A stretch of 64,000 nucleotides of DNA from contig NZ_JACARC010000044.1 of NCBI RefSeq assembly GCF_013386825.1, positions 1 to 64,000 on the forward strand. The letters run 5' to 3'. The stretch is from Pseudomonas sp. IPO3778 (GTDB lineage: Bacteria > Pseudomonadota > Gammaproteobacteria > Pseudomonadales > Pseudomonadaceae). Shown piece by piece: positions 40,098 to 60,719 of this stretch; position 1 is the first letter of the stretch, and every line of letters starts with the position of its first letter. The notes beneath the pieces are model-generated. The model had not been told where the DNA came from. It was given only the letters and a program-made list of their open reading frames with translations, and ran no database searches. Made by a program: the position numbers and the translations under genes.

Positions 40098-41150
40098 TCA
40101 GATGTCAGCGTCGGCCATGTCGTCAGCCGTTTCCCGGGTGGCCGTCGATTTGACGTCGGCAGTCGGGGTCAGCAGTTTGTCGCGGATCTGCTTTTCAAGC
40201 GCCGTGGCAATCTCAGGGTTGTCCTGCAGGAACTTGGCCGAGTTGGCCTTGCCCTGGCCGATCTTGCTGCCGTTATAGGCATACCAGGCACCGGACTTCT
40301 CGACGAAGCCGTGCAGCACGCCCAGGTCGATCATCTCGCCGTTCAGGTAGATACCCTTGCCGTAGAGAATCTGGAACTCGGCCTGACGGAACGGCGGAGC
40401 CACCTTGTTCTTCACGACTTTAACGCGGGTTTCGCTACCGACAACCTCGTCACCTTCCTTCACCGCGCCGGTACGACGGATGTCCAGACGGACCGAAGCG
40501 TAGAACTTCAGCGCGTTACCACCGGTGGTGGTTTCCGGGCTGCCGAACATCACGCCGATCTTCATCCGGATCTGGTTGATGAAGATCACCAAGCAGTTGG
40601 CGTTCTTGATGTTACCGGTGATTTTACGCAGGGCCTGGGACATCAGGCGCGCTTGCAAGCCTACGTGCATGTCGCCCATTTCGCCTTCGATTTCAGCCTT
40701 GGGTACCAGGGCTGCCACGGAGTCGATGACGATCACGTCGATGGCGTTGGAGCGCACCAGCATGTCGGTGATTTCCAGCGCTTGCTCACCGGTGTCCGGC
40801 TGGGAAACCAGCAGGTCGTCAACGTTGACGCCCAGCTTGCCGGCGTATTCCGGGTCCAGGGCGTGCTCGGCATCGACGAACGCACAGGTGGCGCCCATTT
40901 TTTGTGCCTGGGCAATCACCGACAGGGTCAGGGTGGTTTTACCGGAAGATTCAGGACCGTAGATTTCAACGATACGGCCTTTTGGCAGGCCGCCAATGCC
41001 GAGCGCGATGTCCAGACCCAGAGAGCCAGTGGAGATAGCCGGGATCGCCTGACGGTCGTGATCGCCCATACGCATTACGGCACCCTTGCCGAATTGACGT
41101 TCGATCTGACCCAGGGCCGCAGCCAAGGCTTTCTTCTTGTTGTCGTCCAT
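40098..41150 (-). CDS. recA: Recombinase RecA
   Basis: A 350-residue recombinase. Walker [10 protein letters not shown], Walker [12 protein letters not shown]2 region [15 protein letters not shown], and an acidic C-terminus ending [12 protein letters not shown] 41150 gives [17 protein letters not shown]. RecA filaments trigger self-cleavage of LexA and of phage-type repressors, including the S24 repressor encoded at 54689. LexA box upstream. Confidence 0.99.
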
Positions 41151-41190
41151 TAAAGTCCTCACGTAATCAATAAGGCCTGGCGGCCAACAC

Positions 41191-41206
41191 CTGTATAAGT
41201 AGACAG
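41191..41206 (-). promoter_or_regulatory. LexA SOS box of recA
   Basis: CTGTATAAGTAGACAG, a perfect CTGT-N8-ACAG, 41 bp upstream of the recA start. Confidence 0.92.
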
Positions 41207-41233
41207 TATTGTTCCACAAAGATCCGTGATCGC

Positions 41234-41734
41234 CTACCCCTGATTTTCTATTTCTGCTGCAGCTCGTCGCAACAAGCCCTCTAGCGCGGCCTTTACCGTT
41301 TGTCGGCGGACCTCGTCGCGGTTGCCGGGGAAGTGTTCGAGCTCGGCGGTTATCTCCTCGCCAACCCCAAAGGCCAGCCATACCGTGCCCACCGGCTTGT
41401 CCGGCGAACCGCCATCGGGGCCGGCCACACCGCTGACCGCCACGGCAAAACGCGCCAGGCTTTTCTCCTGGGCCCCCCGCACCATGGCCTCCACCACGTC
41501 GCGGCTGACGGCCCCGACTTTGGGAAACAGGGCTTCCGGCACATTCAACTGCCGGGTCTTCTGCCGATTGGAATACGTGACATAGCCCGCTTCGAACCAG
41601 GCCGAACTCCCGGGAATCCGCGTGATCGCCTCGGCGATACCGCCGCCGGTACAGGACTCGGCCGTGGTGACGTGGGCATTGAGTACCTGCAAGCGTCGGC
41701 CAAGTTCTGCGGCGAGTTGAGTAATTTCCTTCAC
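41234..41734 (-). CDS. pncC: PncC/CinA-family nicotinamide-nucleotide amidohydrolase
   Basis: A 166-residue stand-alone CinA C-terminal domain. [36 protein letters not shown] and [15 protein letters not shown] are family blocks. It deamidates NMN to NaMN. The start is GTG at 41734 with AGGAG 6 nt before. That ribosome-binding site lies in the inverted repeat at 41737-41782. It is codirectional with the tailocin operon on its 5' side. Confidence 0.93.
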
Positions 41735-46070: not shown

Positions 46071-46774
46071 CTACTCCTGTTTGATGCCAAGGCGAGTGAT
46101 CGCGATGTCGTAGCGGCGTAAGGCTTTTCCGACTTCCCAGTCCAGGATCTCCGCTTCGTTTACCAAGTAAACCAGCGGCACGACGTCGAGGATTACTTCG
46201 ATATCGCGCTCCGAAAGAAGGCCGCCGGTTGATTTAAAAAATCGTCGATGCGCTCCTGCAGTTCGGTCCAGTCGGGCACGGTCAGGTCCGCCAGGTCGGG
46301 GATCATCAAGCCGCTGCAATGAGCGGTGATGAACTCGGCGCGCTCTTTGGCCGTGGTGAGTTTTTTCATCACTTTGGTGGCGCGCAGGGCGGGCATTTCC
46401 AGGGTCACCGCGGTCAGTGTGCGGCCGGCCGCGTTGAGCGGCAGCAGCAGCTTCACCTGTTCGGTGGTGATTGAGTCGCTTGGTTCGCGGGCTTCGTCCA
46501 GGAAGAACGAGGCCGGACGGGTTGACATGTCATGCACGTATTGGGCGATGGTCACGTAGTCCGGGCGCTTGAGCTGGTCGAGCTCTTTTTCCGACAGGCC
46601 GGTGGCGAGTTTCGCCAGTTCAAAAAACTGGCCGTCCTCGTCGTCACCGGCCCGGGCCAGCGCGTCTTTCTGCGCGGCGTAGTACAGCGGCTTGAGTTGC
46701 ACCTGCTCGATTGTCGCGCCGGTGTCGGCGGTGATCGGGGACAGCAGGATGTGCAGCGGTGGCATCCAGGCCAT
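46071..46774 (-). CDS. Tail assembly chaperone gpE-E' made by -1 frameshift
   Basis: A predicted fusion of about 234 residues: the first 180 codons of the zero-frame protein, then the -1 frame from 46235 to the stop at 46071. The extension (KSTGGLLSERDIEVILDVVP and onward to ITRLGIKQE) is a good protein sequence with no start of its own. The shift site is T TTT TTA at 46235-46241. Equivalent frameshifted chaperones (gpE-E' in P2, G-GT in lambda) are needed for tape-measure assembly. Confidence 0.82.
46193..46774 (-). CDS. Tail assembly chaperone gpE (zero frame)
   Basis: A 193-residue protein. MAWMPPLHILLSPITADTG is the N-terminus; AAGGAA lies 7 nt before ATG 46774. It ends 14 codons after the slippery site. 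The protein is mainly helical, as expected for the G-like chaperone that coats the tape measure. Confidence 0.82.
   Translation of the reverse strand: MAWMPPLHILLSPITADTGATIEQVQLKPLYYAAQKDALARAGDDEDGQFFELAKLATGLSEKELDQLKRPDYVTIAQYVHDMSTRPASFFLDEAREPSDSITTEQVKLLLPLNAAGRTLTAVTLEMPALRATKVMKKLTTAKERAEFITAHCSGLMIPDLADLTVPDWTELQERIDDFLNQPAAFFRSAISK
46235..46241 (-). promoter_or_regulatory. Programmed -1 ribosomal frameshift site T TTT TTA
   Basis: The minus strand reads GAT TTT TTA AAT in the gpE frame. The X XXY YYZ pattern with T TTT TTA is the HIV-type slippery heptamer, in frame. Slippage gives K-S-T-G-G, the start of the extension. Confidence 0.85.
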
Positions 46775-46942: not shown

Positions 46943-47449
46943 TTAGGGCATCAGCACTGCGCGGCGGGCATCACCGAGGATGTCGACGCCGTTGAGCACG
47001 AACTTCTGGGTGCGCACGTCGATGTCGATCACCGGGATGCCGTTTTCCAGGCGGGTGTAGGTGCGGCAGGACAGCTCCAGGGTGGTGGTTGCTTTCTCAC
47101 CCATTTTCAACTTGCCCTCCTCAAGGATTTTGAGCTTGCCGCCGACGGTGTGATAGGTGAAATAGGTCCGGCCATCCTGATCCTGGCCGGCTTCACGCAC
47201 GTTCAGCAGGATGTCGTCACCCAGCCGCACACCCAAGGCCAGCATGATTTCCGGGCCGGCGCCTTGCAGGATCAACTTGGCACCCAGCGCCTTGGCGCTC
47301 TTGGCCATTTCCTCGACGATAAAACGCCCGCCCGTCATGAGTTCCATGTCGAACTCGATTTTCGGCGGGGTGAATTCTTCCACGGTGGCCGACAACGGCA
47401 GGCCTTGGAGGGTGGCCGCAATGGCCTGTCTGACTCGGTTGGTAAACAT
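46943..47449 (-). CDS. Tail tube protein (gpFII family)
   Basis: A 168-residue tube protein. GLPLSATVEEFTPPKIEFDME is the family start region, here seen as TVEEFTPPKIEFD; the C-terminus has VIDIDVRTQKFVLNGVDIL. It stacks as hexamers inside the sheath. ATG shares one base with the sheath stop (TAATG), so sheath and tube are coupled. Confidence 0.93.
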   Translation of the reverse strand: MFTNRVRQAIAATLQGLPLSATVEEFTPPKIEFDMELMTGGRFIVEEMAKSAKALGAKLILQGAGPEIMLALGVRLGDDILLNVREAGQDQDGRTYFTYHTVGGKLKILEEGKLKMGEKATTTLELSCRTYTRLENGIPVIDIDVRTQKFVLNGVDILGDARRAVLMP

Positions 47450-48615
47450 TAGAGAACGTCCTCCAGGAACTGCTCGATGATTTCATCACGGGCGTTGAGT
47501 TGATAAATCATGTGTTCGTTCGGCGCGTAGCGGCCGTAGTCGATGACGATGAACCAGGTGCCGTTCTTGTACTTCTCGACACTGTTCAGTTCCGGGTGCA
47601 GGTACACGCTGCCGCCGGGGATGGTTTCGTCGGCCACCAGAGTTTGCAGCCAGTCGTTGATGCGCTTGACCTCCTGGTCCATGAAGGACTTGGTGAGGTT
47701 CTTGGCCATGGCTTTCTGGCCGGCCTTGACCAGCTTGCGGCTGATGGCGTCTTCCAGGCCCACGTAGCTGATGAACTTGCCGGTGATGGAGCGGTTACCC
47801 AGCAGCGAGAAGCCGCCGAGGATGGTGCGGGCGTAGTAGCTCACGCCGTAGCGGTTAAGCAGGTCGCCTTCAGTGGAGGTGTCGAGGATGTTGTACTCAA
47901 CCACGCGGGAAACGTCTTCGGCGAACGTCACCTGATTGCCCGGGCTTTCCCATTGCTTGACCTTGGCCAGTGCCGCGATGGCCAGGGACGACGGCGCCAG
48001 GAACACATTTTTCTTCGCAGCCTTGGAGTACACCGACGGCATGTTGTGCACCAGCAGGCAACGGTCGAAACCGAGGTCGGCACCGCCCAGTTCGCCGCTG
48101 TAGGTCACTTGGTCGGCAACGGACGCGTCCTTGCCATCCAGCACCACACGGGCCTTGATGCGCTTGCCGAAGGAAGCGAATTCGCCGGCCACGGCCTTGG
48201 TGCCGGTGAAGCCCGGGGCGCCGATGATGGTCAGGTCTTCGGGGACGCTGGCCAGGGCGGCGAGGCCCAGTTTGCGGCCGGTCACCGGCTCTTCACCGCC
48301 GATCACGTTATTGAGGGTGTCGGCCGGGGTGGTGCCCTCGTCGACGATCACCACGTAGACCGGCACCTTGACCACTTTGAGGATCTGGTACACGGCGTGG
48401 AACAGCGTGCCGGTCTCGGCGCCGGTGGGGTCCAGCAACGCCTGGGTGGTGAAGCTGTTGATGCGGAACGGGGCGTTTTTCGGGATCGACGCGTGGGCAT
48501 TGGGGGCAGTGCCCACCAGGCCGATCACGTTATCACCCAGGCCACCCATGGCCTCGGGGGATTCAGTGGCATTCACGGTGATGCCGTTGTGCTCGAAGTT
48601 CAAAACCTCAGCCAT
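47449..48615 (-). CDS. Contractile tail sheath protein (gpFI family)
   Basis: A 388-residue sheath protein. Family blocks are GLVGTAPNA near the N-terminus, SVPEDLTIIGAPG in the middle and LYHPELNSVEK-like VYLHPELNSVEKY near the end. Contraction drives the tube through the target envelope. Presence of a sheath shows that the particle is R-type, not F-type. Confidence 0.95.
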   Translation of the reverse strand: MAEVLNFEHNGITVNATESPEAMGGLGDNVIGLVGTAPNAHASIPKNAPFRINSFTTQALLDPTGAETGTLFHAVYQILKVVKVPVYVVIVDEGTTPADTLNNVIGGEEPVTGRKLGLAALASVPEDLTIIGAPGFTGTKAVAGEFASFGKRIKARVVLDGKDASVADQVTYSGELGGADLGFDRCLLVHNMPSVYSKAAKKNVFLAPSSLAIAALAKVKQWESPGNQVTFAEDVSRVVEYNILDTSTEGDLLNRYGVSYYARTILGGFSLLGNRSITGKFISYVGLEDAISRKLVKAGQKAMAKNLTKSFMDQEVKRINDWLQTLVADETIPGGSVYLHPELNSVEKYKNGTWFIVIDYGRYAPNEHMIYQLNARDEIIEQFLEDVL

Positions 48616-48617
48616 GA

Positions 48618-48791
48618 TCAGTCAGCCTTCTTGGGAGTGGAGTTGAGGACGCTGGTGAGCTCCAGGCGGCCAGCGGTGCGCAGGGCGCAGGCTTCGACAT
48701 CCAGCAGGTCGAGTTCCTGACCGACGGTGGACCAATGGCCGGCGCCGGTGGGGAACGGGATGAGGACGGTGTATTTCTGACGGTTTGGCAT
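48618..48791 (-). CDS. Small 57-residue tailocin protein, unknown function
   Basis: MPNRQKYTVLIPFPTGAGHW begins the protein; it ends SVLNSTPKKAD. GGAG lies about 10 nt before the ATG. It sits 2 nt before the sheath start and after the internal terminator, so it is the first gene of a possible second transcription unit (small protein-sheath-tube). Confidence 0.7.
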   Translation of the reverse strand: MPNRQKYTVLIPFPTGAGHWSTVGQELDLLDVEACALRTAGRLELTSVLNSTPKKAD

Positions 48792-48819
48792 TTGCGAAAT
48801 TCTCCAGACGCAAAACGCG

Positions 48820-48872
48820 AAAGCCCCTGGAAGAGGGGCTTTGGGCGGGCGAAAAAAAACCGCTTTCGCGGT
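48820..48872 (-). terminator. Internal terminator pair between fibre and sheath genes
   Basis: Minus strand: ACCGCGAAAGCGGTTTTTTTT at 48851-48872 is a short GC stem followed by eight T, a good intrinsic terminator. A second hairpin, AAAGCCCC...GGGGCTTT at 48820-48842, follows. Both are within the tailocin cluster, directly after the fibre chaperone. Confidence 0.75.
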
Positions 48873-48879
48873 GTGTGGT

Positions 48880-49182
48880 TCAGGTGCGATCAGGCAATGG
48901 ATAAAGTGCTTTGATCTCCGCAACTTTGTCGCGCCACGCCTTTTCTTTTTCAGGAGTTTCGTCGTATTGCCATTCAAGGAACAGCGGGTCAGCTTCAGTC
49001 ACATACAGGGTGCGACGCGCCGCGATGGAACTCTCTAGCTGAGTGGTTTTCGCGGCCTCAATGCAAAGCTGTTCTGCTTGTTCGACGGAAAAACCAAGAT
49101 TTTTGAGAATCTCAACATCCGCTGGAATATTGATCAGCTGCTCACCTGCAGGTGTCACGGCAGTTTTAATAGAAAGCGTCAT
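48880..49182 (-). CDS. Tail-fibre assembly chaperone-like protein
   Basis: A 100-residue protein. The C-terminal ADPLFLEWQYDETPEKEKAW...VAEIKALYP matches short fibre assembly proteins of Pseudomonas phages. N-terminus carries predicted helix VEILKNLGFSVEQAEQL. The ATG directly follows the fibre stop (TGAATG) with GGGGG as ribosome-binding site. Fibre/chaperone gene pairs are usually exchanged together. Confidence 0.72.
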   Translation of the reverse strand: MTLSIKTAVTPAGEQLINIPADVEILKNLGFSVEQAEQLCIEAAKTTQLESSIAARRTLYVTEADPLFLEWQYDETPEKEKAWRDKVAEIKALYPLPDRT

Positions 49183-49968
49183 TCAAACCCCCTTCGATGC
49201 ATAGATTTTGTCGTTGTCGTAGGAGTACGCCAACCGCTTCTCGGGCAACGTTGCTCCCAAGACCGCGTCAGCATCTACCAAACGATACGGTCGAACGCAC
49301 CAACGAATCTCCCAATCACCTTGAGTACTTTCGCCAATAGCCACCTCGCTATCGGAGCGGCTGAAACCAACAGCGCCGGCAAACGATTTAGTCACCGTGT
49401 ACCCCAATCCTCCGCGCAAATAAACACCGGAATGCATTGCCGCCTGAATTACTTGACCGTCTGCTACATCTTGATACAACGGCCTGACGCCCGTGATATG
49501 TCGTGCAACACAGATCATCCCGAAACTTACACCTCGAACCGACTCCCGGTAAGTTTGAGAAATACGCTTAATACTCAATAAATTACCGTCGCCGTTCCAG
49601 ATGTAACCGCAACCCTCCATCTGCAAATTCAGCCCCGCGATATGATAGACACCCTTACCAAAAGGTTCTAACTCTTGATCACGACTGTAGATCCGGGAAA
49701 GAGTAATTTCTGTTTCACCACTCTCATTACCTGGCATCGTCCACCAGACAGGATAAAACGTATCGGTCGGTAGCCCTGTTAGATCAATTTCCTGTTTATA
49801 AAGCGCGCGACCATTAATATCTTTGGCTTGCACACTATTACGCCAAGCTGTGAACTGACTCGATGCAGCCTCTACTTGCGCATCAATTTTTCCAATCTGG
49901 TTAGTCACCGTTTCCGTCAGCTTATTACACGCATCTACAACTTTCGTGATAGTCGTTTCAATTCCCAT
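49183..49968 (-). CDS. Probable receptor-binding tail fibre, C-terminal protein
   Basis: A 261-residue protein. The N-terminus is a predicted coiled coil (KVVDACNKLTETVTNQIGKI), then a beta-rich domain with many aromatic and polar residues and a C-terminus typical of tip domains. The base composition is clearly more AT-rich than its neighbours. It lies at the fibre locus between the N-terminal fibre protein and the chaperone. ATG 49968 has AGGGAG at better distance than 49971. Target specificity is expected to lie here; inference from position. Confidence 0.7.
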   Translation of the reverse strand: MGIETTITKVVDACNKLTETVTNQIGKIDAQVEAASSQFTAWRNSVQAKDINGRALYKQEIDLTGLPTDTFYPVWWTMPGNESGETEITLSRIYSRDQELEPFGKGVYHIAGLNLQMEGCGYIWNGDGNLLSIKRISQTYRESVRGVSFGMICVARHITGVRPLYQDVADGQVIQAAMHSGVYLRGGLGYTVTKSFAGAVGFSRSDSEVAIGESTQGDWEIRWCVRPYRLVDADAVLGATLPEKRLAYSYDNDKIYASKGV

Positions 49969-50015
49969 CATCCACTCCCTGTCAATTAATCTTTCCAGCA
50001 CTTTTGTCAGTGCAG

Positions 50016-50546
50016 CTACTTCGTTTCGAGATGCATAACCCGCAACATCAGATCAACGTGACGAGACATATTGCCAACCGAAGCCGCCGCCATGATTGCG
50101 ATCTCTTCAGCCATCAATACATTCAGGTTTTCACTCCCCACAACTATCATCACGCTATCCGCCGGCAACGGCGAAATATCCAACGTGAACTTCTGCAGCA
50201 CCCGAGCCGCCGCAGCTTTATACGTTAGCAACTTCCCCGCCACGGAATACACCGCCAACAAAGTCCCACTGGCAAGGTAAAAACCGAACTCGCCAATCTC
50301 ATACTCAGCCTCACCATCAAACAGCGCGGCCATCCTGAGTTGCCGGTCGCCCAAGTCCTCGTAGTCCACAATCGCCACCCGCTGGCGCTCATCACGCAGG
50401 GCAACTTCAGTGCCGTCGGGGTTGTACCGGCCGGTGCCGGCGCCGATGTGGGTGATTTCGCCTTTCAAGCCCTGGTTCTTTGCCTGCAGCACTTCATCCA
50501 ATCCCTTGGAGGTGAAGCGCACCAGGCGTGTAATTTCATCTGTCAT
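50016..50546 (-). CDS. Tail fibre N-terminal (baseplate-attachment) protein, gpH-like
   Basis: A 176-residue protein with the tail-fibre N-terminal domain (TRLVRFTSKGLDEVLQAKNQ; HIGAGTGRYNPDGTE). In P2-like phages this domain continues into a long fibre; here a stop follows NMSRHVDLMLRVMHLETK. The next gene holds the rest. It overlaps gpI by ATGA. Confidence 0.8.
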   Translation of the reverse strand: MTDEITRLVRFTSKGLDEVLQAKNQGLKGEITHIGAGTGRYNPDGTEVALRDERQRVAIVDYEDLGDRQLRMAALFDGEAEYEIGEFGFYLASGTLLAVYSVAGKLLTYKAAAARVLQKFTLDISPLPADSVMIVVGSENLNVLMAEEIAIMAAASVGNMSRHVDLMLRVMHLETK

Positions 50547-51271
50547 GTCTGCGCCCTGAGGTCGTAGTCGTTAAGGGTGTAGTGCCGGGCAACCCCGGCA
50601 CTGTTAAGCCGGGCCGCCAGCCCGAATTCAGGCAGCACGCCACACAGCTGCAACTCACCATCGCTTAGTGGTGTGTGAGCCACGCTGCTGCACACCAGTG
50701 CCCCCTGTAACTTCACCTCGGGCAGTGCGCCGGGCGGGCTTTCATCACCGATGTTCAACGCCGGATCAGCGGCCGCGGCAACACGTAAACCCTGGGAGGT
50801 CTCGTGCACGATGGTGATCGTGCCCAGGTCCCGCTCGCTCTTGGCCGCGTTGATGCGGCGGATCAAACGGTTGTGATCACCGCTGGACCAACTGCGACCG
50901 ATGATTGCCTGCACGTCAAAGGTGTAAGGCAAACCGGTTGGCCGCTGTTGATACCAGGCGCTGAGGTTGGGGGTGAAACCCAGCGATTCGACGGCGTAGC
51001 TCAACGCCTTGGGCGTACCGGCCTGACGCTGGATCTGCCAGGACAAGGCCACGGTGAGGCGCTTCTCCGATTCGCTGGCATCGGCATCCCATTCACTGAC
51101 GCCGCGATCAGCGGCCAAGTAGGGAAGGAATTCAACCGGCGTCTGCAACGGGTTCATCAATGCCGGGAAGGGCGGAGTAACCCGGTCGAGCAACTGCCCG
51201 AACCCCAAGTCCAGCGCCTTCTCCAACGGCGAACTGTTAGCGGGCAGCAAGCTGCTTTTTCGCTCACTCAT
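50543..51271 (-). CDS. Tail protein I (gpI, baseplate)
   Basis: A 242-residue gpI-family protein. Family block AADRGVSEWDADASESEKRLTV, here seen as VSEWDADASESEKR, plus PKALSYAVESLGF. It links the fibre to the baseplate. ATG 51271 (MSERKSSLLP) overlaps gpJ stop by 4 nt; overlap of 4 nt with the next gene as well. Confidence 0.9.
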   Translation of the reverse strand: MSERKSSLLPANSSPLEKALDLGFGQLLDRVTPPFPALMNPLQTPVEFLPYLAADRGVSEWDADASESEKRLTVALSWQIQRQAGTPKALSYAVESLGFTPNLSAWYQQRPTGLPYTFDVQAIIGRSWSSGDHNRLIRRINAAKSERDLGTITIVHETSQGLRVAAAADPALNIGDESPPGALPEVKLQGALVCSSVAHTPLSDGELQLCGVLPEFGLAARLNSAGVARHYTLNDYDLRAQT

Positions 51272-52263
51272 AGCGTGCGCACCTCCACCTCGACACCCGT
51301 GCAATACGGGGCCTGGAATGCCGTGCTGACAATCGGCTCCAGCGGTTCAAGGATTTGCAGTTGGGCAGCGCCTGCCGAGTGGATGGCGTAGTCGATCCAG
51401 CTCGGGTCCACCCGGCCTTCCAGGCGATGACAAGACTCTGCATAGTCTTGCAGCAGTTTCTGGGCGGCGACTTGAGTGAGCCCGGAATCCGGGCCGGGGT
51501 TGATCTTCGCCACTACGCGAATTTTGTAGCGCAGGATCTGAGCCGCCTGCACCGTGACGAGATCCGTTTCCGGCCGCACATCAGGCCGGGCGAAATGCCG
51601 GCGTACACCGTCGAGCAGATCAGCAGGTGGCGTGCCATCGCCGTCTCGGGCCAAGACCGTCACCATCACTTCACCCGGCGCGGTGCGACGGCCGTTGCCA
51701 TCCTTGACCCGAGCCGCATAGCCGTCCGGGTCGAAGGTATAAGTGACCGTCACCACCCCGGGCGTAGCACTTTGCACTTTCACCGATGGACGCTCACCCA
51801 GGGTGAAAACCTCCCGGCGATACTGCATGCGCGAGCCTGCCGCTGGAGCATGGGGCGCGAGGTAGTAACGCAGTCGGGCGTCATCGTCGCTCTCCAGCGT
51901 CGGCGGCACTGGCGGGAAAGCCGCCGGGTCACCGGGGTCCAGCACCTGGCGCTCCAGGCCCATGTCGGCCAGGCGTGCGTCGAGGTTGCTGCCGGTGGCC
52001 CACCACGCCAGCATCTGCTTGATGCGGGCGTTGTATTTGCGCTCGTGGGTTTGCAGGCGAACGCAAAAAGCTTCGAGCGCCAACGTCAGCAACTCGCTTT
52101 CGTTCTCCAGGCTGACCTTGAGCTTGGCGGCATTTTCCGGCGCACGGGTGGCGACGTAATCAACGACAAACGCCTTGAACTCCGCCAACAGCGGTTCGAA
52201 CTCGTCGACGGCAATGATCGCCGGCTCGGCCAACTGGTTCTGGCCGGGTATCAGCATGCTCAT
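51268..52263 (-). CDS. Baseplate assembly protein J (gpJ)
   Basis: A 331-residue gpJ-family wedge protein. Blocks include LEAFCVRLQTHERKYNARIKQML, seen here as YNARIKQMLAWWATGSNLD, and RYKIRVVAKINPG-like LRYKIRVVAKINPGPD. The gene overlaps gpW by 4 nt and gpI by 4 nt. Confidence 0.92.
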   Translation of the reverse strand: MSMLIPGQNQLAEPAIIAVDEFEPLLAEFKAFVVDYVATRAPENAAKLKVSLENESELLTLALEAFCVRLQTHERKYNARIKQMLAWWATGSNLDARLADMGLERQVLDPGDPAAFPPVPPTLESDDDARLRYYLAPHAPAAGSRMQYRREVFTLGERPSVKVQSATPGVVTVTYTFDPDGYAARVKDGNGRRTAPGEVMVTVLARDGDGTPPADLLDGVRRHFARPDVRPETDLVTVQAAQILRYKIRVVAKINPGPDSGLTQVAAQKLLQDYAESCHRLEGRVDPSWIDYAIHSAGAAQLQILEPLEPIVSTAFQAPYCTGVEVEVRTL

Positions 52264-54093: not shown

Positions 54094-54166
54094 GTCACGC
54101 CTCCTGGCTGAGCATTACCGGCGCAGTGCCGGGTGTTGGGTAATTCCATTTATAGGTAGGCATTCC

Positions 54167-54191
54167 AAAAAGCCCGGTTGCCCGGGCTTTT
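54167..54191 (-). terminator. Terminator-like hairpin in the tailocin leader
   Basis: AAAAGCCCGG/CCGGGCTTTTT: a strong stem with T-tract on the minus strand, about 75 nt upstream of the holin and about 330 nt downstream of the predicted transcription start. It would stop or attenuate transcripts from the operator promoter unless overcome. Confidence 0.7.
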
Positions 54192-54394
54192 CAGTAATGA
54201 TGTCCTCGAACGTTCGGCGCTACTGGCGCGGTACGGTTCTTTCCTCAATGTTTTTCCGACCACGATCCCTGTCTGCCGGATAACTGCTTCTGGTGCTTTA
54301 CGCTGCACACCCGGGCCAGTTGCCAACCCTCTGAACCGTTAAGGCCGGTTCATCGCTGCCTGTTCTTGAAGCGGTTTGAAACTAAAGAGCGTCG

Positions 54395-54494
54395 GCATCC
54401 TTGCCGGTGTTGCCTGGCATCCGTGCCATCGCTTCGATGGCGTCCTTGCCGGTGTTGCGTAACGTCCTTGTCTTCCTTGGCAGCATCCTTGCCG
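54395..54494. repeat. Direct repeats in the tailocin leader
   Basis: GCATCCTTGCCGGTGTTGC at 54395, GCGTCCTTGCCGGTGTTGC at 54440 and a shorter GCATCCTTGCCG at 54483; spacing 45 and 43 bp. On the minus strand one frame repeats N-T-G-K-D-A. No gene is convincing here. Confidence 0.65.
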
Positions 54495-54528
54495 CCTCCA
54501 CCAGGCCTTCTTGGCTGGCTTGAGATGA

Positions 54529-54557
54529 AGAATATGCATGTATGCATATACAGTCAA
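54529..54557 (-). promoter_or_regulatory. Predicted tailocin promoter
   Basis: Minus strand: TTGACT, 17-nt spacer, TATTCT. -35 at 54552-54557 and -10 at 54529-54534. One operator lies within the spacer, a second touches the -35. This gives a repressible promoter for the holin-to-Rz operon. Confidence 0.75.
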
Positions 54558-54600
54558 TGCACAAATGCATTTATTTTTGCTCGACTTATGCATGAGTGCA
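54535..54600 (-). promoter_or_regulatory. Three TGCA-N4-TGCA operators
   Basis: Exact matches at 54535-54546, 54558-54569 and 54589-54600. Centres are 23 and 31 bp apart. Sites 1 and 2 cover the spacer and the upstream edge of -35. They are the probable binding sites of the S24 repressor encoded upstream. A looser TGCA-N7-TGCA is before the repressor gene at 55469-55483. Confidence 0.75.
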
Positions 54601-54644
54601 TTTCCAGCCTGATGGGCAAGGGGTTTGGAGGTTTTGCATGGGCG

Positions 54645-54672
54645 AAAAAAAGCCCGCTCATGGGCGGGCTTT
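54645..54672 (-). terminator. Terminator of the repressor gene
   Basis: AAAGCCCGCCCATGAGCGGGCTTTTTTT on the minus strand, just after the repressor stop. It isolates the repressor from the tailocin promoter. Confidence 0.85.
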
Positions 54673-54688
54673 GTCTTACGCGAATGGG

Positions 54689-55423
54689 TCAGCGGGCGTA
54701 CATGCCCCACCAGAAGACATGACCGAGGATGCTGATCTGTTCATCCTGGATGTCCTGGAAGCTGTAGTCCTCATCCGGATGTTCATCGCGGTTGAAGCTG
54801 CGCAGGCGAATCCCGGAGGGCAGGCGGTAGAGCTGTTTCACCCGCAGTTGGCCGTTGTGATTGATGGCATACAAGTCGCCATCGACGATGTCGCCGATCC
54901 CGCACTTGCCCGCGTTGACGCCGACGGTCGCGCCATCACGCAGCACCGGCAACATACTGTTGCCGCGCACCGTCACGCACTTGGCCTGGTCGAACTGCAC
55001 ACCGTTATGCCGCAGACTGCGCTTGCCGAATCGCAGGCTGGCCTTCTCGCTTTCCTCGATGACGAATCTTCCTGATCCAGCAGCCAATTCAACCTCGCGC
55101 AGAAAGGGGATCGACACCTCGTCATCATTAACGGGGGTGTCGTCGTCCCACAGGCTTATGTCCTTGAGTTCCGAATGCATCGGGTCGCGCTCGTCCGACC
55201 GCGCCGGCACCAGGGCCGCGCGCCCGCGCAGCTGGTCGGTGCTGACCTGGAAGTAATCGGCGATGCGCGAGATGTGCTTGTCCGACGGGTCAACGATCTT
55301 GCCGCTGAGGATCCGGGACAGCGTGGATTGAGGCACGCCGGTACGCCGGTGAAGCTCCGTGGGGGAGATCCGGTCGCGGTCCAGCAGCTCTCTTAAGACG
55401 ATAGAAACGTTGCGTTTTTGCAT
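54689..55423 (-). CDS. PrtR/CI-like XRE-S24 self-cleaving repressor
   Basis: A 244-residue repressor. N-terminal HTH with TELHRRTGVPQSTLSRILSG; cleavage-site Ala-Gly in VELAAGSGRF; catalytic Ser in VRGNSMLPVLRDG; catalytic Lys in LRVKQLYRLP. RecA filaments should trigger self-cleavage and release the tailocin promoter. ATG 55423 (MQKRNVSIVLREL) is preferred over a 12-residue longer frame. No PrtN-type activator gene is seen, so control is probably by direct repression. Confidence 0.9.
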   Translation of the reverse strand: MQKRNVSIVLRELLDRDRISPTELHRRTGVPQSTLSRILSGKIVDPSDKHISRIADYFQVSTDQLRGRAALVPARSDERDPMHSELKDISLWDDDTPVNDDEVSIPFLREVELAAGSGRFVIEESEKASLRFGKRSLRHNGVQFDQAKCVTVRGNSMLPVLRDGATVGVNAGKCGIGDIVDGDLYAINHNGQLRVKQLYRLPSGIRLRSFNRDEHPDEDYSFQDIQDEQISILGHVFWWGMYAR

Positions 55424-55816
55424 AACGCGGATAGTGCAGGCAGTTTTGATGCTTGGCAAATGCTAATTTGCATATTTAATGCATTGAACGTTCGCGTCAG
55501 CTGCAATCGTGGAGCCAATGTTGGCTACGAGACCGATAACCAGAATCAAGGTGTAGGTTTGACCACAACCGCCAAAATTACGGATGCCCCAGGCGGATTT
55601 CTTGTCGTAGCAAGTGGTGAGGCATGCCTTAACACCAAAACTGATAGGTCGACGTCCTCGGCCGGCTGCGATATCGCGAAAAGATCAACCGGGTATTCGC
55701 CTGGATCGCACAAGTTGAGCAGCATCACTTCTGAACTGCAGCCGTGATTTACTGTCGTACGCTGGCTCTACGCCACATTAGCGAGTAACCCATTGGCTAC
55801 CAAGGAGAGGTACAAA
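55424..55816. other. Divergent region between repressor and hcp
   Basis: About 390 bp with no convincing gene. It contains a looser operator-like TGCA-N7-TGCA at 55469-55483 near the repressor start. Short open frames on both strands lack ribosome-binding sites and family sequence. Confidence 0.5.
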
Positions 55817-56305
55817 ATGGCTTTCGACGCCTTTATTCAGATCGCAGATATCCCTGGCGAAGCGCTAGACGAAAAGTACAATAAATGGATAGAAATTACC
55901 GGCTATAACTTCGGCGTTAGTCAAAGCACCTCCGCCACTGCCAGCTCCTCTGGTGGCGCATCATCCGGTCGTACCACCATGACCAATTTCACCTTCACAA
56001 AACACTTGGATAGCGCCAGTTGCAAGCTAATGGAGGCCAGCTGCGCGGGTCAGCACTTGAAGGAAGTGAAACTGGTGTTATGCCGCGCAAGCACCGATAA
56101 ACTCAAATACTACGAGGTAGTGCTTGAAGAAGTGATCATCGCTGATTACACCCAGAGCGCCAGTTCCGGCATCCCCATGGAAATCGTACAACTCAACTAC
56201 GGTCGCATCAAAACAACCTATACCCTGCAGAAGCGCGTCGATGGCACAGCAGGCGGTAACACGACCGGCGGATGGGACCGAATCAGCAATAAAAAGTATT
56301 CGTGA
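55817..56305 (+). CDS. hcp: Hcp-family type VI secretion tube protein (orphan)
   Basis: A 162-residue Hcp. Typical blocks: MAFDAFIQIADIPGEALDEK at the start, a glycine/serine loop (TASSSGGASSG), FTFTKHLDSASCKLMEAS and LNYGRIKTTYTLQK near the end. It would polymerise as hexameric rings in the T6SS tube and carry or contact an effector. AAGGAGAGG lies 6 nt before the ATG. No other T6SS gene is in the window. The next two genes form a likely effector-immunity pair. Confidence 0.92.
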   Translation: MAFDAFIQIADIPGEALDEKYNKWIEITGYNFGVSQSTSATASSSGGASSGRTTMTNFTFTKHLDSASCKLMEASCAGQHLKEVKLVLCRASTDKLKYYEVVLEEVIIADYTQSASSGIPMEIVQLNYGRIKTTYTLQKRVDGTAGGNTTGGWDRISNKKYS

Positions 56306-56314
56306 GGTTCGACC

Positions 56315-57289
56315 ATGGCCGAAGCACTTTCCTTTATCAACTCCAGAACGCAGACCTTCGACTCTCAGAAAGCTAGCCTTGCACTACCAAAGAATACCAA
56401 GGGCAAGTTCATTTCCCTCAACTCCCACATCTCGAGCGGAGTTGTCCTTGCCGGTGAGGTCGTGATCGTCGGGGACGCCTCCACTCCATCGTCTACCGCT
56501 CAGGAAGCCTTCCTGATGGCAAAAGCTGCCGAAGTGCATACGGCGTTGTTGGTTAACGGGGTGGGAGCAGATGACTTTTTTCTTGAGCATTTTGAGCTGC
56601 TTAAGCAGGCGATCTCCTACACGTCCATGGGGATAGGCGCGGCCAGTGATAGCTGGGCCAAACATATGGACGACATTAAAAAAACGCTTCAGGACATTGA
56701 AAATCTTTATCGGAGACACGTCAGCTCAGGCACCATTACTCAACGAGACGTTTTCTATGCGAAGCGAACAGAGTTGTTCATGAAGCTTGATAAACAGCTG
56801 GATAATTTTCTGGCCTACGGTTCCGGACTGCGCAAGGAAGGCTCGATCAAAAGACTGCTCGGGCTTTCAACCAAAAGCTATATGCATACTGCAGAACTCG
56901 CGGGGTACACAGATAAGGTATCCGGTGTGGCAATGGCCTCCAAGTGGATAAAACGGGGAGCCTATATTGGGACCGCGCTTGAAGTAGGCTCCACCGCAAT
57001 TTCAATTCATAAAGCTTGTGCGTTAGGGCGCGAGGAGCAATGCAAGAGAGCAAAATATGTTGAGGGGAGCTCTCTGGTCGGGAGTATAACCGGAGCGGGG
57101 GGAGGCGGAGCTCTCGGCGGCCCCATAGCAGGAGGCATATGTTTGCTGGGGCTAGGTATCACAACAGGTCCAGGTGCATTGGCCTGCACCGTTATAGGAG
57201 GTGCAGCGGGTGGATGGGTGGGAGGCGAAGGGGGTAAGTGGATCGGCGAGAAAATTGGAAAGTATATTTATGGGAAAGTTACAGAATGA
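56315..57289 (+). CDS. Probable Hcp-dependent T6SS effector with glycine-zipper domain
   Basis: A 324-residue protein starting 9 bp after hcp. Residues ~20-55 (ALPKNTKGKFISLNSHISSG, then a VVLAGEVVIVGD-like segment) are LysM-like; a helical middle follows; residues ~255-310 are Gly-rich and hydrophobic (GAGGGGALGGPIAGGICLLG, ending GWVGGEGGKWIGEKIGKYIYG). Such a C-terminus is found in pore-forming glycine-zipper toxins such as Tse4. Codon use becomes AT-rich toward the 3' end. I do not claim identity with a named toxin. Confidence 0.7.
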   Translation: MAEALSFINSRTQTFDSQKASLALPKNTKGKFISLNSHISSGVVLAGEVVIVGDASTPSSTAQEAFLMAKAAEVHTALLVNGVGADDFFLEHFELLKQAISYTSMGIGAASDSWAKHMDDIKKTLQDIENLYRRHVSSGTITQRDVFYAKRTELFMKLDKQLDNFLAYGSGLRKEGSIKRLLGLSTKSYMHTAELAGYTDKVSGVAMASKWIKRGAYIGTALEVGSTAISIHKACALGREEQCKRAKYVEGSSLVGSITGAGGGGALGGPIAGGICLLGLGITTGPGALACTVIGGAAGGWVGGEGGKWIGEKIGKYIYGKVTE

Positions 57290-57663
57290 CAAACATCCCA
57301 ATAGGCCTGATTGGTATTTTTATAATATTACCGATGATTATTAATCTAATTGTAACAGCTGTGATTGCGCATAAATATGTTGAGACCATAGAAAGCCATC
57401 TACCAAACTGCTCTTTTGTATCAACCATTAGAGAGGCATGGTCAGGTGGCGGCGTACTCGGAAAGCTTATTCGAGGTGGGGTGATGACAATAGTCATGAT
57501 GATGCCGAATCTGTGCGCCAAAAAAGGCATAATTGATATCAACGAGATGAATAGACTGCCCGTTTTCTACAAAAGACTATTAATCATTCCGATGCTTATA
57601 ACTTTTACTCTATTCACTGCCATGATGGCGTTGAGGATCGCTGGATATCTATTAGGGCTTTGA
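57286..57663 (+). CDS. Probable immunity membrane protein
   Basis: A 125-residue AT-rich protein with strong hydrophobic segments at residues 4-27 (IPIGLIGIFIILPMIINLIV) and 96-122, and a weaker one in the middle (GGVMTIVMMMP). ATG overlaps the effector stop (ATGA), so it is translationally coupled. Membrane immunity protein against a pore-forming toxin is the simplest reading. Confidence 0.7.
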   Translation: MTNIPIGLIGIFIILPMIINLIVTAVIAHKYVETIESHLPNCSFVSTIREAWSGGGVLGKLIRGGVMTIVMMMPNLCAKKGIIDINEMNRLPVFYKRLLIIPMLITFTLFTAMMALRIAGYLLGL

Positions 57664-58139: not shown

Positions 58140-60719
58140 ATGACCGACCTTTCCAGCCACACTCCGATGATGCAGCAGTACTGGCGCCTGAAAAACCAGC
58201 ACCCTGATCAGTTGATGTTCTATCGCATGGGCGACTTCTACGAGATCTTCTATGAAGACGCGAAGAAGGCCGCCAAGTTGCTGGACATCACCCTGACCGC
58301 GCGCGGGCAGTCGGCCGGGCAGGCGATTCCGATGTGCGGGATTCCCTATCATTCGTTGGAAGGTTACCTGGTTAAACTCGTGAAGCTGGGCGAGTCGGTG
58401 GTGATCTGTGAGCAGATCGGCGACCCGGCCACCAGCAAGGGCCCGGTTGAGCGTCAGGTGGTACGCATTATTACTCCGGGCACGGTGAGTGATGAGGCGC
58501 TGCTGGATGAGCGTCGCGATAACCTGATCGCAGCGGTACTGGGGGACGAGCGGCTGTTCGGCCTGGCAGTGCTGGATATCACCAGTGGCAATTTCACGGT
58601 GCTGGAGATCAAGGGCTGGGAAAACCTGCTGGCGGAACTGGAGCGCGTCAACCCGGTGGAGTTGATGATTCCGGATGACTGGCCAAAGGACCTGCCGGCG
58701 GAACGTCGCCGTGGGACCAAGCGTCGCGCGCCGTGGGATTTCGAACGTGATTCGGCGCTGAAAAGCCTGTGCCAGCAATTCTCCGTGCAAGACCTGAAGG
58801 GGTTTGGTTGCGAAACCCTGACCCTGGCCATCGGCGCCGCCGGCTGCCTGCTCAGTTATGCCAAGGAAACCCAGCGCACCGCCCTGCCCCATTTGCGCAG
58901 CCTGCGCCATGAGCGCCTGGACGACACGGTGGTGCTGGACGGCGCCAGCCGGCGCAACCTGGAGCTGGACACCAACCTGGCCGGCGGGCGCGACAACACC
59001 CTGCAATCGGTGGTCGACCGTTGCCAGACCGCCATGGGCAGCCGCTTGTTGACCCGCTGGTTGAACCGCCCACTGCGGGACCTGACGGTGCTGCAAGCCC
59101 GTCAAACCTCTATTACCTGCCTGCTGGATCGCTATCGCTTTGAAAAGCTGCAACCGCAGCTCAAGGAAATCGGCGATATCGAGCGGATCCTGGCGCGGAT
59201 CGGCCTGCGTAACGCACGGCCCCGGGACCTGGCACGCCTGCGGGATGCCCTTGGCGCCCTGCCGCAACTGCAAGCGGCGATGACCGAACTGGAAGCGCCG
59301 CACCTGCAGCAGCTGGCAGTCACCACCAGCACCTACCCGGAACTGGCGGCGCTGCTGGAAAAAGCCATCATCGACAACCCACCCGCGATCATCCGTGACG
59401 GTGGCGTGTTGAAGACCGGTTACGACACCGAGCTGGACGAACTGCAATCCCTGAGCGAGAACGCCGGGCAGTTCCTGATCGACCTCGAAGCCCGGGAAAA
59501 AGCCCGCACGGGCCTGGCCAACCTGAAAGTCGGCTACAACCGCGTGCACGGCTACTTTATTGAGTTGCCGAGCAAGCAGGCCGAGCAGGCGCCGATCGAT
59601 TACCAGCGCCGCCAGACCCTCAAGGGTGCCGAGCGCTTTATCACGCCAGAGTTGAAAGCCTTCGAAGACAAGGCCCTGTCGGCCAAGAGTCGCGCCTTGG
59701 CTCGGGAGAAGATGCTCTACGAAGCGTTGCTCGAAAGCCTGATCGACAAGCTGGCGCCGTTGCAGGACACCGCCGCCGCCCTGGCCGAACTGGATGTGCT
59801 GAGCAACCTCGCCGAGCGCGCCCTGAACCTTGACCTGAACTGCCCGCGGTTTGTCAGCGAACCGTGCATGCGCATCGTGCAAGGTCGCCACCCGGTGGTG
59901 GAGCAGGTGTTGACCACGCCGTTCGTCGCCAACGACCTGTCGCTGGACGACGACACCCGCATGCTGGTGATCACCGGTCCGAACATGGGCGGTAAATCCA
60001 CCTACATGCGTCAGACCGCCTTGATCGTGCTGCTGGCCCATATCGGCAGCTTCGTGCCGGCAGCCAGCTGCGAATTGTCCCTGGTGGACCGCATCTTCAC
60101 CCGGATCGGCTCCAGCGATGACCTGGCCGGTGGCCGTTCGACCTTTATGGTGGAAATGAGCGAAACCGCCAACATCCTGCACAACGCCACCGAACGCAGC
60201 CTGGTGCTGATGGACGAAGTGGGCCGCGGCACCAGCACCTTCGACGGACTGTCCCTGGCCTGGGCTGCGGCCGAGCGGCTGGCGCACCTGCGGGCGTATA
60301 CGCTGTTCGCGACGCATTACTTCGAGCTGACCGTGCTGCCGGAAAACGAGCCGCTGGTGGCCAACGTGCACCTCAATGCCACCGAGCACAACGAGCGCAT
60401 CGTGTTCCTGCACCACGTGCTGCCCGGCCCGGCGAGCCAGAGTTACGGCCTGGCCGTGGCGCAACTGGCGGGTGTACCGGCAGAGGTGATCACCCGCGCC
60501 CGCGAGCACCTGAGCCGCCTGGAAGAAACCGCCCTGCCCCACGAGATTCCCGTGGCCAGCCCGGCCAAAGCCAGCAACAAACCCAGCGCGCCGCACCAGA
60601 GCGATATGTTCGCCAGCCTGCCTCACCCGGTACTGGATGAGTTGGCTAAGCTTGATCTGGACGACTTGACGCCGAGAAAAGCGCTCGAAATGTTATATGC
60701 ACTGAAGACTCGGATATAA
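58140..60719 (+). CDS. mutS: DNA mismatch repair protein MutS
   Basis: An 859-residue mismatch-binding ATPase. The Phe-x-Glu mismatch wedge is in [15 protein letters not shown]; Walker A is [15 protein letters not shown]; Walker B lies in [16 protein letters not shown]; the helix-turn-helix dimer region is near the end. C-terminal [15 protein letters not shown] is the tetramer/beta-clamp-associated tail. ATG 58140 gives [15 protein letters not shown]. Chromosomal marker for the tailocin integration site. Confidence 0.99.

Follow-up and report, generated by a model that had tools for sequence, protein, structure and literature searches.

The tail fiber of phage P2 (gpH) and that of the R-pyocins are encoded between gpI and the sheath gene, with a chaperone gene behind, and each is a single chain. 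Exchange of fiber and chaperone is already known in other tailocins. In the portions available of the report on the R-type syringacins of P. syringae, the receptor-binding protein and its chaperone are swapped by localized recombination and the killing spectrum follows the pair (PMC6331570), and the accessible text on the carotovoricin of Pectobacterium describes a genus-wide recombinational exchange of tail fiber loci (PMC13195805). Here, we analyze a 64,000-nucleotide stretch of Pseudomonas sp. IPO3778 (positions 1 to 64,000 of contig NZ_JACARC010000044.1, assembly GCF_013386825.1; "the window"), in which the fiber of an R-tailocin is divided between two genes on the minus strand. These are fibA (50016..50546), which encodes an adaptor of 176 amino acids (aa) and ends at a TAG stop, and fibB (49183..49968), which encodes a distal fiber of 261 aa; a gene for a 100-aa chaperone- or assembly-like protein (48880..49182) follows. 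The open reading frames (ORFs) bear out these lengths and this order as given in the initial annotation of the window. We think it quite probable that the three genes form a receptor-binding module with a constant adaptor, FibA, and an exchangeable FibB, in which the fibA tail, fibB, and the chaperone gene are replaced together by homologous recombination.

Like the R-type syringacins, as far as the accessible portions of that source describe them (PMC6331570), the locus keeps a conserved N-terminal part at one boundary and exchanges fiber and chaperone as a unit; it differs in that its anchor is encoded by an adaptor gene of its own and in that a terminator lies at the downstream edge. In carotovoricin, the conserved block is the first half of one fiber gene rather than a separate adaptor, and some loci also invert by means of an invertase (PMC13195805, accessible text). 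Tailocins #1 and #2 of P. protegens CHA0 and their relatives occupy the same mutS-cinA/recA hotspot and have strain-variable fiber genes, but neither a split fiber nor a unit of exchange is described there (PMC7815802). The mutS-cinA site also appears in PMC8319346, a Marinomonas R-bacteriocin region is VP882-like (PMC10870725), and the tailocin field is reviewed in PMC10598620 and PMC12090994; for all of these, the statements refer to the parts of the sources that were available. A separate fibA and a separate distal protein with the same docking segment ("dock") are shared by Vibrio phages, Halomonas phage phiHAP-1, and Shewanella phage M16-3, which, unlike the element in the window, are complete phages; fibA is 58% identical to that of the window in VP882 and 55% in phiHAP-1. 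The fiber-tail adaptor of GP4 stands alone as FibA does, and any relation is by fold only, with a modest Z score. An exchange unit joining fibA tail and dock, a separate adaptor as anchor, a terminator as edge, and a dock held in common with proteins linked to diversity-generating retroelements (DGRs) were not met in the literature searched, which took in neither subscription papers nor supplements and is weak evidence of absence. Relative to that literature, the split form with a traveling adaptor tail is new.

The two-gene layout and its spread

Among 398 Pseudomonas genomes, 52 contain fibA, and in 41 of them, the genome of the window included, it is 76 to 100% identical, the range that we call close. 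All 41 close loci have fibA as a separate ORF of 176 to 183 aa followed by a second gene of ~205 to 286 aa, so that none has the single chain of the P2 gpH type, and the sheath lies beyond the second fiber gene in the 40 loci whose contigs extend that far. Loci from IMG/VR and GTDB were limited to the best 80 of 142 confirmed, and the viral set therefore leans toward fibA sequences near that of the window. The 170 loci reduce to 124 unique ones, with L213 (fibA off the contig end) and L122 (partial) remaining without a record. In every one of the 124, FibA measures 175 to 185 aa; a second ORF is present in 122, and the other two (L174 and L181) lie on contigs that end too soon.

The same layout extends beyond the tailocins. 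Eight of 16 phage records were opened, the remaining 8 being duplicates or sister phages by name, and all eight (VP882, phiHAP-1, MAR, VP58.5, M16-3, VHML, VPHZ6, and 10N.286.54.E5) have a separate fibA of 160 to 182 aa. Of 12 more distant places at 29 to 40% identity, 11 were fetched (G408 was left out); nine are split too, with FibA 36 to 40% identical and 228 or 288 aa long, and two have single-chain fibers, of 1057 aa (L118) and 530 aa (L119). Judged from these sequences, the split is old and widespread, being the norm both for this tailocin family and for those related phages that were opened. It is ordinary for this strain and not peculiar to it.

It could be argued that a sequencing error or frameshift splits one fiber gene here, or that programmed frameshifting joins the two genes. 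The fibB frame of the window does stay open about a dozen codons back into fibA (an open frame of 289 aa versus the ORF of 272 aa). However, across 119 loci, the frame of fibB relative to fibA takes all three values (60, 25, and 34 loci). In 80 of them, the fibB frame is already closed before fibA ends, and 115 have a loose Shine-Dalgarno-like motif ahead of fibB, a count made without a chance control. An error joining the frames, which the initial annotation had named as a possible undoing of its reading, is ruled out by the split in 41 of 41 loci and by the occurrence of all three relative frames among the 119. Programmed fusion is most unlikely, because the frames vary, the fibB frame is so often closed, and the Shine-Dalgarno-like motif is nearly always there. 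We accord this explanation as a whole next to no credence.

The start of fibB deserves a comment. The program-made ORF list begins it at GTG 50001 (272 aa), and a neighboring ATG at 49971 would give 262 aa. ATG 49968, giving 261 aa, appears to be the likeliest start, since AGGGAG lies 6 nucleotides upstream and the residues that follow (MGIE...) are conserved within the class.

The exchanged unit and its boundaries

BLAST comparison of the distal bodies of 122 loci separates six classes, with 50 members in class 0 (that of the window), 33 in class 1, 31 in class 2, 4 in class 3, 3 in class 4, and 1 in class 5. Five of these occur in the 40 Pseudomonas genome loci over which classes were counted and base composition was measured (L078, on a contig without the sheath, was excluded): class 0 in 8, class 1 in 18, class 2 in 10, class 3 in 3, and class 5 in 1; class 4 is found only in IMG/VR contigs. 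To the eye, classes 3 to 5 look tailspike-like and are probably beta-helices, and because this was judged by eye, a common fold for the three is possible. Placed on a backbone tree of the 40 loci, the class labels require 17 changes, where the minimum is 4 and shuffled labels average 19.6 (13 of 200 shuffles are as low); the one-row class 5 entered this test only together with the other classes. Because 17 changes are so close to the shuffled mean, the distal class is, on this tree, nearly independent of the backbone.

The window itself illustrates this. Its nearest backbone, that of L076, is 95% identical over the tree columns, and the gpJ, gpI, and sheath DNA of the two loci is 91 to 97% identical, yet L076 has a class 1 fiber. 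In bins of 100 bp, identity between the two is 82 to 100% up to the fibA core, 22 to 50% over fibB and the chaperone gene, 66 to 86% over the terminator and the 57-aa gene beyond it, and 94 to 98% in the sheath. The left edge falls at ~50130, or fibA codon ~139, which places the left breakpoint in a linker, because this codon lies between the end of the predicted FibA domain (residue 136) and a C-terminal helix (146 to 175). On the right side, identity is regained precisely at the terminator, near 48871, with bins of 80 to 86% just beyond it. The terminator (48852..48871, minus strand), identified by pattern match, reads CCGC-GAAA-GCGG-T(8). Its hairpin and T-run are present in all 40 genome loci with the sheath and in 102 of 119 unique loci, 5 others being too short to tell. 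RNA folds computed around the terminator and the fibA/fibB gap were no better than those of shuffled sequences (z of -1.0, -1.2, and -0.3).

The segment of fibA to the right of this edge (50016..50130, minus strand) is inherited with the distal fiber. For 114 loci of classes 0 to 2, identity over FibA residues 1 to 135 has no class structure (0.84 to 0.89 within and 0.85 to 0.90 between classes), whereas residues 136 to 155 are more alike within classes (0.739 versus 0.607), as are residues 156 to 176 (0.669 versus 0.513). The nearest neighbor by fibA tail belongs to the same class in 118 of 122 loci and the nearest by fibA core in 57 of 122, against 0.30 expected by chance; near-duplicate strains raise both counts. 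Over 119 loci, Spearman correlations are 0.68 for tail with dock, 0.25 for core with dock, and 0.29 for tail with core, and within class 1 alone they are 0.82, 0.13, and 0.06. The nearest chaperone likewise shares the fibB class in 116 of 117 loci, although the chaperones of classes 0 to 3 and 5 merge into one family at a looser cutoff. As in a tailocin fiber and chaperone module, then, class is discordant with backbone and the chaperone is matched to its fiber. Breakpoints in one close pair, together with co-inheritance, show that the moving unit consists of the fibA C-terminal tail, fibB, and the chaperone gene.

The initial annotation had proposed that the receptor-binding part was exchanged, with a breakpoint near 50000. 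Both the edge at ~50130 and the discordance of class and backbone among the 40 loci support this. It had rightly included the distal fiber in the exchanged part and had missed that the C-terminal ~37 residues encoded by the first gene belong to it as well. It had also set its reading against close relatives that share the two-gene layout with uniform composition and no breakpoints; such relatives do share the layout, whereas their composition is not uniform and breakpoints are present.

Base composition, which had suggested that the exchange was recent, is less informative. The GC content is 0.48 in fibB and 0.49 in the chaperone gene, compared with 0.62 in the sheath and 0.63 in gpI, so the AT-richness of the second gene and its chaperone relative to the flanks is real. 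The AT-rich stretch already begins inside the first gene, however: fibA as a whole stands at 0.55, its codons 1 to 135 at 0.57, and codons 136 to the end at 0.49. As a sign of recent exchange, AT-richness alone was rejected: fibB is below the sheath in GC in 40 of 40 Pseudomonas loci, where the gap of the window ranks 13th of 40, and so by itself it dates nothing.

Adaptor and dock in tailocins and phages

FibA matches phrog_3737 ("tail fiber protein"; E value of 4.7e-78) over its whole length, residues 4 to 175 aligning to positions 3 to 174 of the 270-position profile. Its model has a beta-rich domain at residues 8 to 136 and the C-terminal helix at 146 to 175, with a mean predicted local distance difference test score (pLDDT) of 77.9. 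The closest folds to the domain in the PDB are the HFTV1 tail (Z of 9.4 over 122 residues), A511 gp105 (8.3), and the phi812 arm (8.0). The GP4 fiber-tail adaptor (PDB 8jou) follows with a Z of 6.7 over 109 residues and a Foldseek probability of 0.97 at an E value of 0.069, and matches outside phage proteins start at a Z of 4.7. A profile search of PDB sequences returned nothing for FibA and only Lpp coiled coils for FibB (E values of 0.19 to 0.53). NCBIfam gave no match up to an E value of 0.1 for FibA, FibB, or the chaperone-like protein.

FibB, a class 0 body, matches phrog_10758 (E value of 2.7e-84). Its model comprises a helix at residues 3 to 45 and a beta-sandwich at 57 to 225 (mean pLDDT of 80.8; predicted template modeling score of 0.72). 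The coiled coil expected at the start of the second chain is consistent with this helix, whose 3.5-residue hydrophobic periodicity was reached by 3 of 2000 shuffles. A search of viral models with FibB gave 14 matches at E values of <=0.001; those with names are tail, tail fiber, or phage structural proteins, bar one Peptidase S74 domain-containing protein.

The first 44 residues of FibB (49837..49968, minus strand) form a predicted docking helix that is alike in all six body classes and could be recognized by motif in 119 of 122 loci. We built a profile from 44 nonredundant docks and ran it against 336 ORFs, comprising 15 phage proteins and, from both strands of 20 loci, every ORF of 150 aa or more (L243, whose contig ends, was left out). 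There were 26 matches at E values of <=0.05, compared with none when the N termini of the same 336 ORFs were shuffled once. The matches are the distal proteins of nine of nine phages inspected, of the nine loci L109 to L117, and of L241, L242, L244, L245, L246, L003, L006, and L007, the weakest being L112 (E value of 0.0006) and L116 (0.004). No dock was matched in L118, L119, or L052, nor in VP882 gp22 to gp24 or phiHAP-1 gp14 to gp16, which lie between adaptor and distal protein.

Two of these phages carry the dock in a different setting. In VP58.5 (L248:3026-4258) and VHML (L250:3027-4259), the dock proteins (E values of about 1e-4) lie behind the same FibA adaptor and, according to the annotations, adjoin a reverse transcriptase gene, with an Avd gene also present in VP58.5. 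This layout is presumably that of a DGR target. An FGE-sulfatase domain (PF03781) is recognized in the VP58.5 protein, whose N terminus matches phrog_8748 (E value of 0.0004), as does that of FibB in the window (4.7e-7). We lean slightly toward the view that adaptor and dock are a general plug-and-socket standard that serves both the R-tailocins and the temperate myophages of Pseudomonas, Vibrio, Halomonas, and Shewanella. The adaptor core would then accept any protein with the ~45-residue dock, FGE/C-type-lectin-like proteins included; tailocins would swap tail, plug, and chaperone from the domain boundary of the adaptor to the terminator, and DGR phages would mutate the plug.

Several further observations concern docks. 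Similar long dock proteins occur in L242 and L244 from IMG/VR. In VP882 (L011), phiHAP-1 (L012), and MAR (L247), three extra genes, two hypothetical and one for a tail fiber, stand between the adaptor and the dock-bearing protein. In G091, a genome from another family of the same taxonomic order, six places (L003 and L006 to L010) match the fibB dock region, and for this reason it probably carries several such elements. In the Vibrio phage 10N.286.55.E6_PE002 (L253), a class 0 body 43% identical to that of the window lies behind an adaptor of 268 aa, a separate gene annotated like the phage HP1 fiber.

Proposed mechanism, alternatives, and neighboring genes

In the arrangement that we propose, the beta-rich domain of FibA would sit on the baseplate with its C-terminal helix pointing outward. 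The FibB docking helix would couple to this tail, probably as a trimeric coiled coil, and the FibB beta-sandwich would meet the target surface, probably lipopolysaccharide (LPS), as in other tailocins. The 100-aa protein (phrog_5714, of unknown function; E value of 1.7e-25), a putative fiber chaperone by its position, would aid the folding of its own FibB. For homologous recombination, flanking homology would be supplied to the left by the fibA core and to the right by the stretch from the terminator through the 57-aa gene to the sheath. Because fibA tail, fibB, and chaperone gene are replaced as one unit, plug and socket would presumably stay matched. Such a weapon could change targets without redesign of its baseplate, given a small separate socket, a swap unit that includes the outer tail of that socket, and a terminator as edge. 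It also ties tailocin evolution to phages in which reverse transcription appears to diversify the same plug, and it accounts for the annotation of such loci as a "tail fiber protein" followed by a "hypothetical protein."

A number of observations weigh against this interpretation. Tail-dock co-inheritance is compatible with plain physical linkage, and within class 0, the correlations are 0.64 for tail with dock, 0.66 for core with dock, and 0.82 for tail with core; for class 2, they are 0.44, 0.42, and 0.41. In both, the dock tracks core and tail about equally. The L253 dock, on a class 0 body, comes after a different adaptor. It is possible, then, that the fibA tail, which adjoins fibB, merely hitchhikes as its neighbor, with the left crossover falling wherever homology stops and with no physical coupling to the dock; L253 and the core-dock correlations of classes 0 and 2 would both fit. 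Yet a predicted domain boundary is where the crossover falls, different genera share the dock profile even as the bodies change, and FibA stays within 175 to 185 aa in all 124 unique loci. We therefore regard hitchhiking as unlikely and coupling of tail and dock as the better account.

The boundaries are also not uniformly sharp. The backbone tree was a quick one, in which 14 of 37 inner branches are open, and the terminator is missing in 12 of 119 unique loci. The left edge is the cleaner of the two. On the right, the beginning of the 57-aa gene and its leader (48660-48830, minus strand) differ from those of L076, L071, and L069 alike; for this reason, the last crossover in the window may lie slightly past the terminator. 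As a separate observation, these three relatives resemble each other over that interval, and the departure of the window from them perhaps reflects a second small exchange.

On the structural side, FibA and FibB were modeled as single chains, their contact is a putative one, and LPS is put forward as the receptor by analogy. FibA falls short of the cutoff of PF12571, the N-terminal domain of phage tail-collar fibers (15.6 versus 23 bits). Its helix is modeled at low confidence (pLDDT blocks of 39 to 66) and has no significant heptad signal, which was reached by 263 of 2000 shuffles; its Z of 6.7 to the GP4 adaptor is within the range compatible with a mere common arrangement. For FibB, the viral matches have template modeling scores of 0.33 to 0.48 by query length, Foldseek against the PDB gave nothing at E values of <=0.001, and the best structural Z in VIA-align, 8.1 to the tailspike C-domain 6c72, is about the level of chance matches. 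Two other Acinetobacter tailspikes (5.2 and 5.0) and galectins (at most 4.6) follow, so a likeness of FibB to the tailspike C-domain and galectins is suggestive only.

Finally, L075 is a relative in which gpI is less conserved than fibB (0.70 versus 0.74). This bears on the alternative that FibB is an accessory decoration and that specificity resides in another place, for instance the variable segment of gpI, which differs in length and sequence near 50650-50850. Against it, when six genes (gpJ, gpI, fibA, fibB, chaperone, and sheath) were compared with those of 12 relatives, fibB or the chaperone gene was the least conserved in 11, and FibB falls into six classes and matches tail fiber models. 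The order of adaptor, fiber, and chaperone is, moreover, that of known fiber loci. Decoration thus seems improbable, and we retain FibB as the candidate receptor-binding part.

The remainder of the locus is that of a headless P2/VP882-like R-tailocin at the Pseudomonas mutS-cinA/recA hotspot, as known here from its genes. Named by eye from translations, recA (40098-41381) and cinA (41234-41734) border it at one end and mutS (58140-60719) at the opposite end. Between cinA and mutS, Pfam and PHROGs identify Rz, a GH19-type endolysin, gpD, a hub protein (X), U, the tape measure, tube, sheath, fiber genes, gpI, gpJ, gpW, gpV, a holin, and an S24/helix-turn-helix repressor. The sheath, tube, baseplate, and spike genes are matched by phrog_23, PF04985, PF05954, PF04865, PF09684, PF04717, and phrog_43. 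The contractile genes stand in what we take to be the P2 order. Lysis genes of its own, a PrtR-type repressor, and the insertion site all accord with an R-tailocin. The ORFs searched with Pfam and PHROGs from cinA (41734) to prtR (54689) included no capsid, portal, or terminase gene; small ORFs, for example 46071-46319 and the ones within 54100-54690, lay outside that search.

All fiber genes are on the minus strand between gpI and the sheath. On the left flank are genes for the gpI-like baseplate protein (50543..51304, minus strand; PF09684, E value of 4.5e-32) and the gpJ-like baseplate protein (51268..52263, minus strand; PF04865, 5.3e-14). A second polymorphic stretch of gpI, at ~50650-50850, has ~30 additional residues in the window and in certain relatives compared with others, and it has no strict link to the fibB class. 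To the right, between the terminator and the sheath, is the conserved 57-aa gene (48618..48791, minus strand; phrog_6423, 1.4e-33). The sheath gene itself (47449..48615, minus strand; phrog_23, 1.2e-69) is a conserved flank, its protein being 93 to 99% identical among the 39 relatives whose contigs reach it.

Lastly, the stretch between the tailocin repressor and mutS (55793-57663, plus strand) holds an Hcp gene (PF05638), a 324-aa ORF with a glycine-rich C terminus, and a 141-aa membrane-like ORF. The two ORFs beside the Hcp gene have no Pfam match, and the stretch falls to 39% GC; it looks like an Hcp-effector-immunity cassette.

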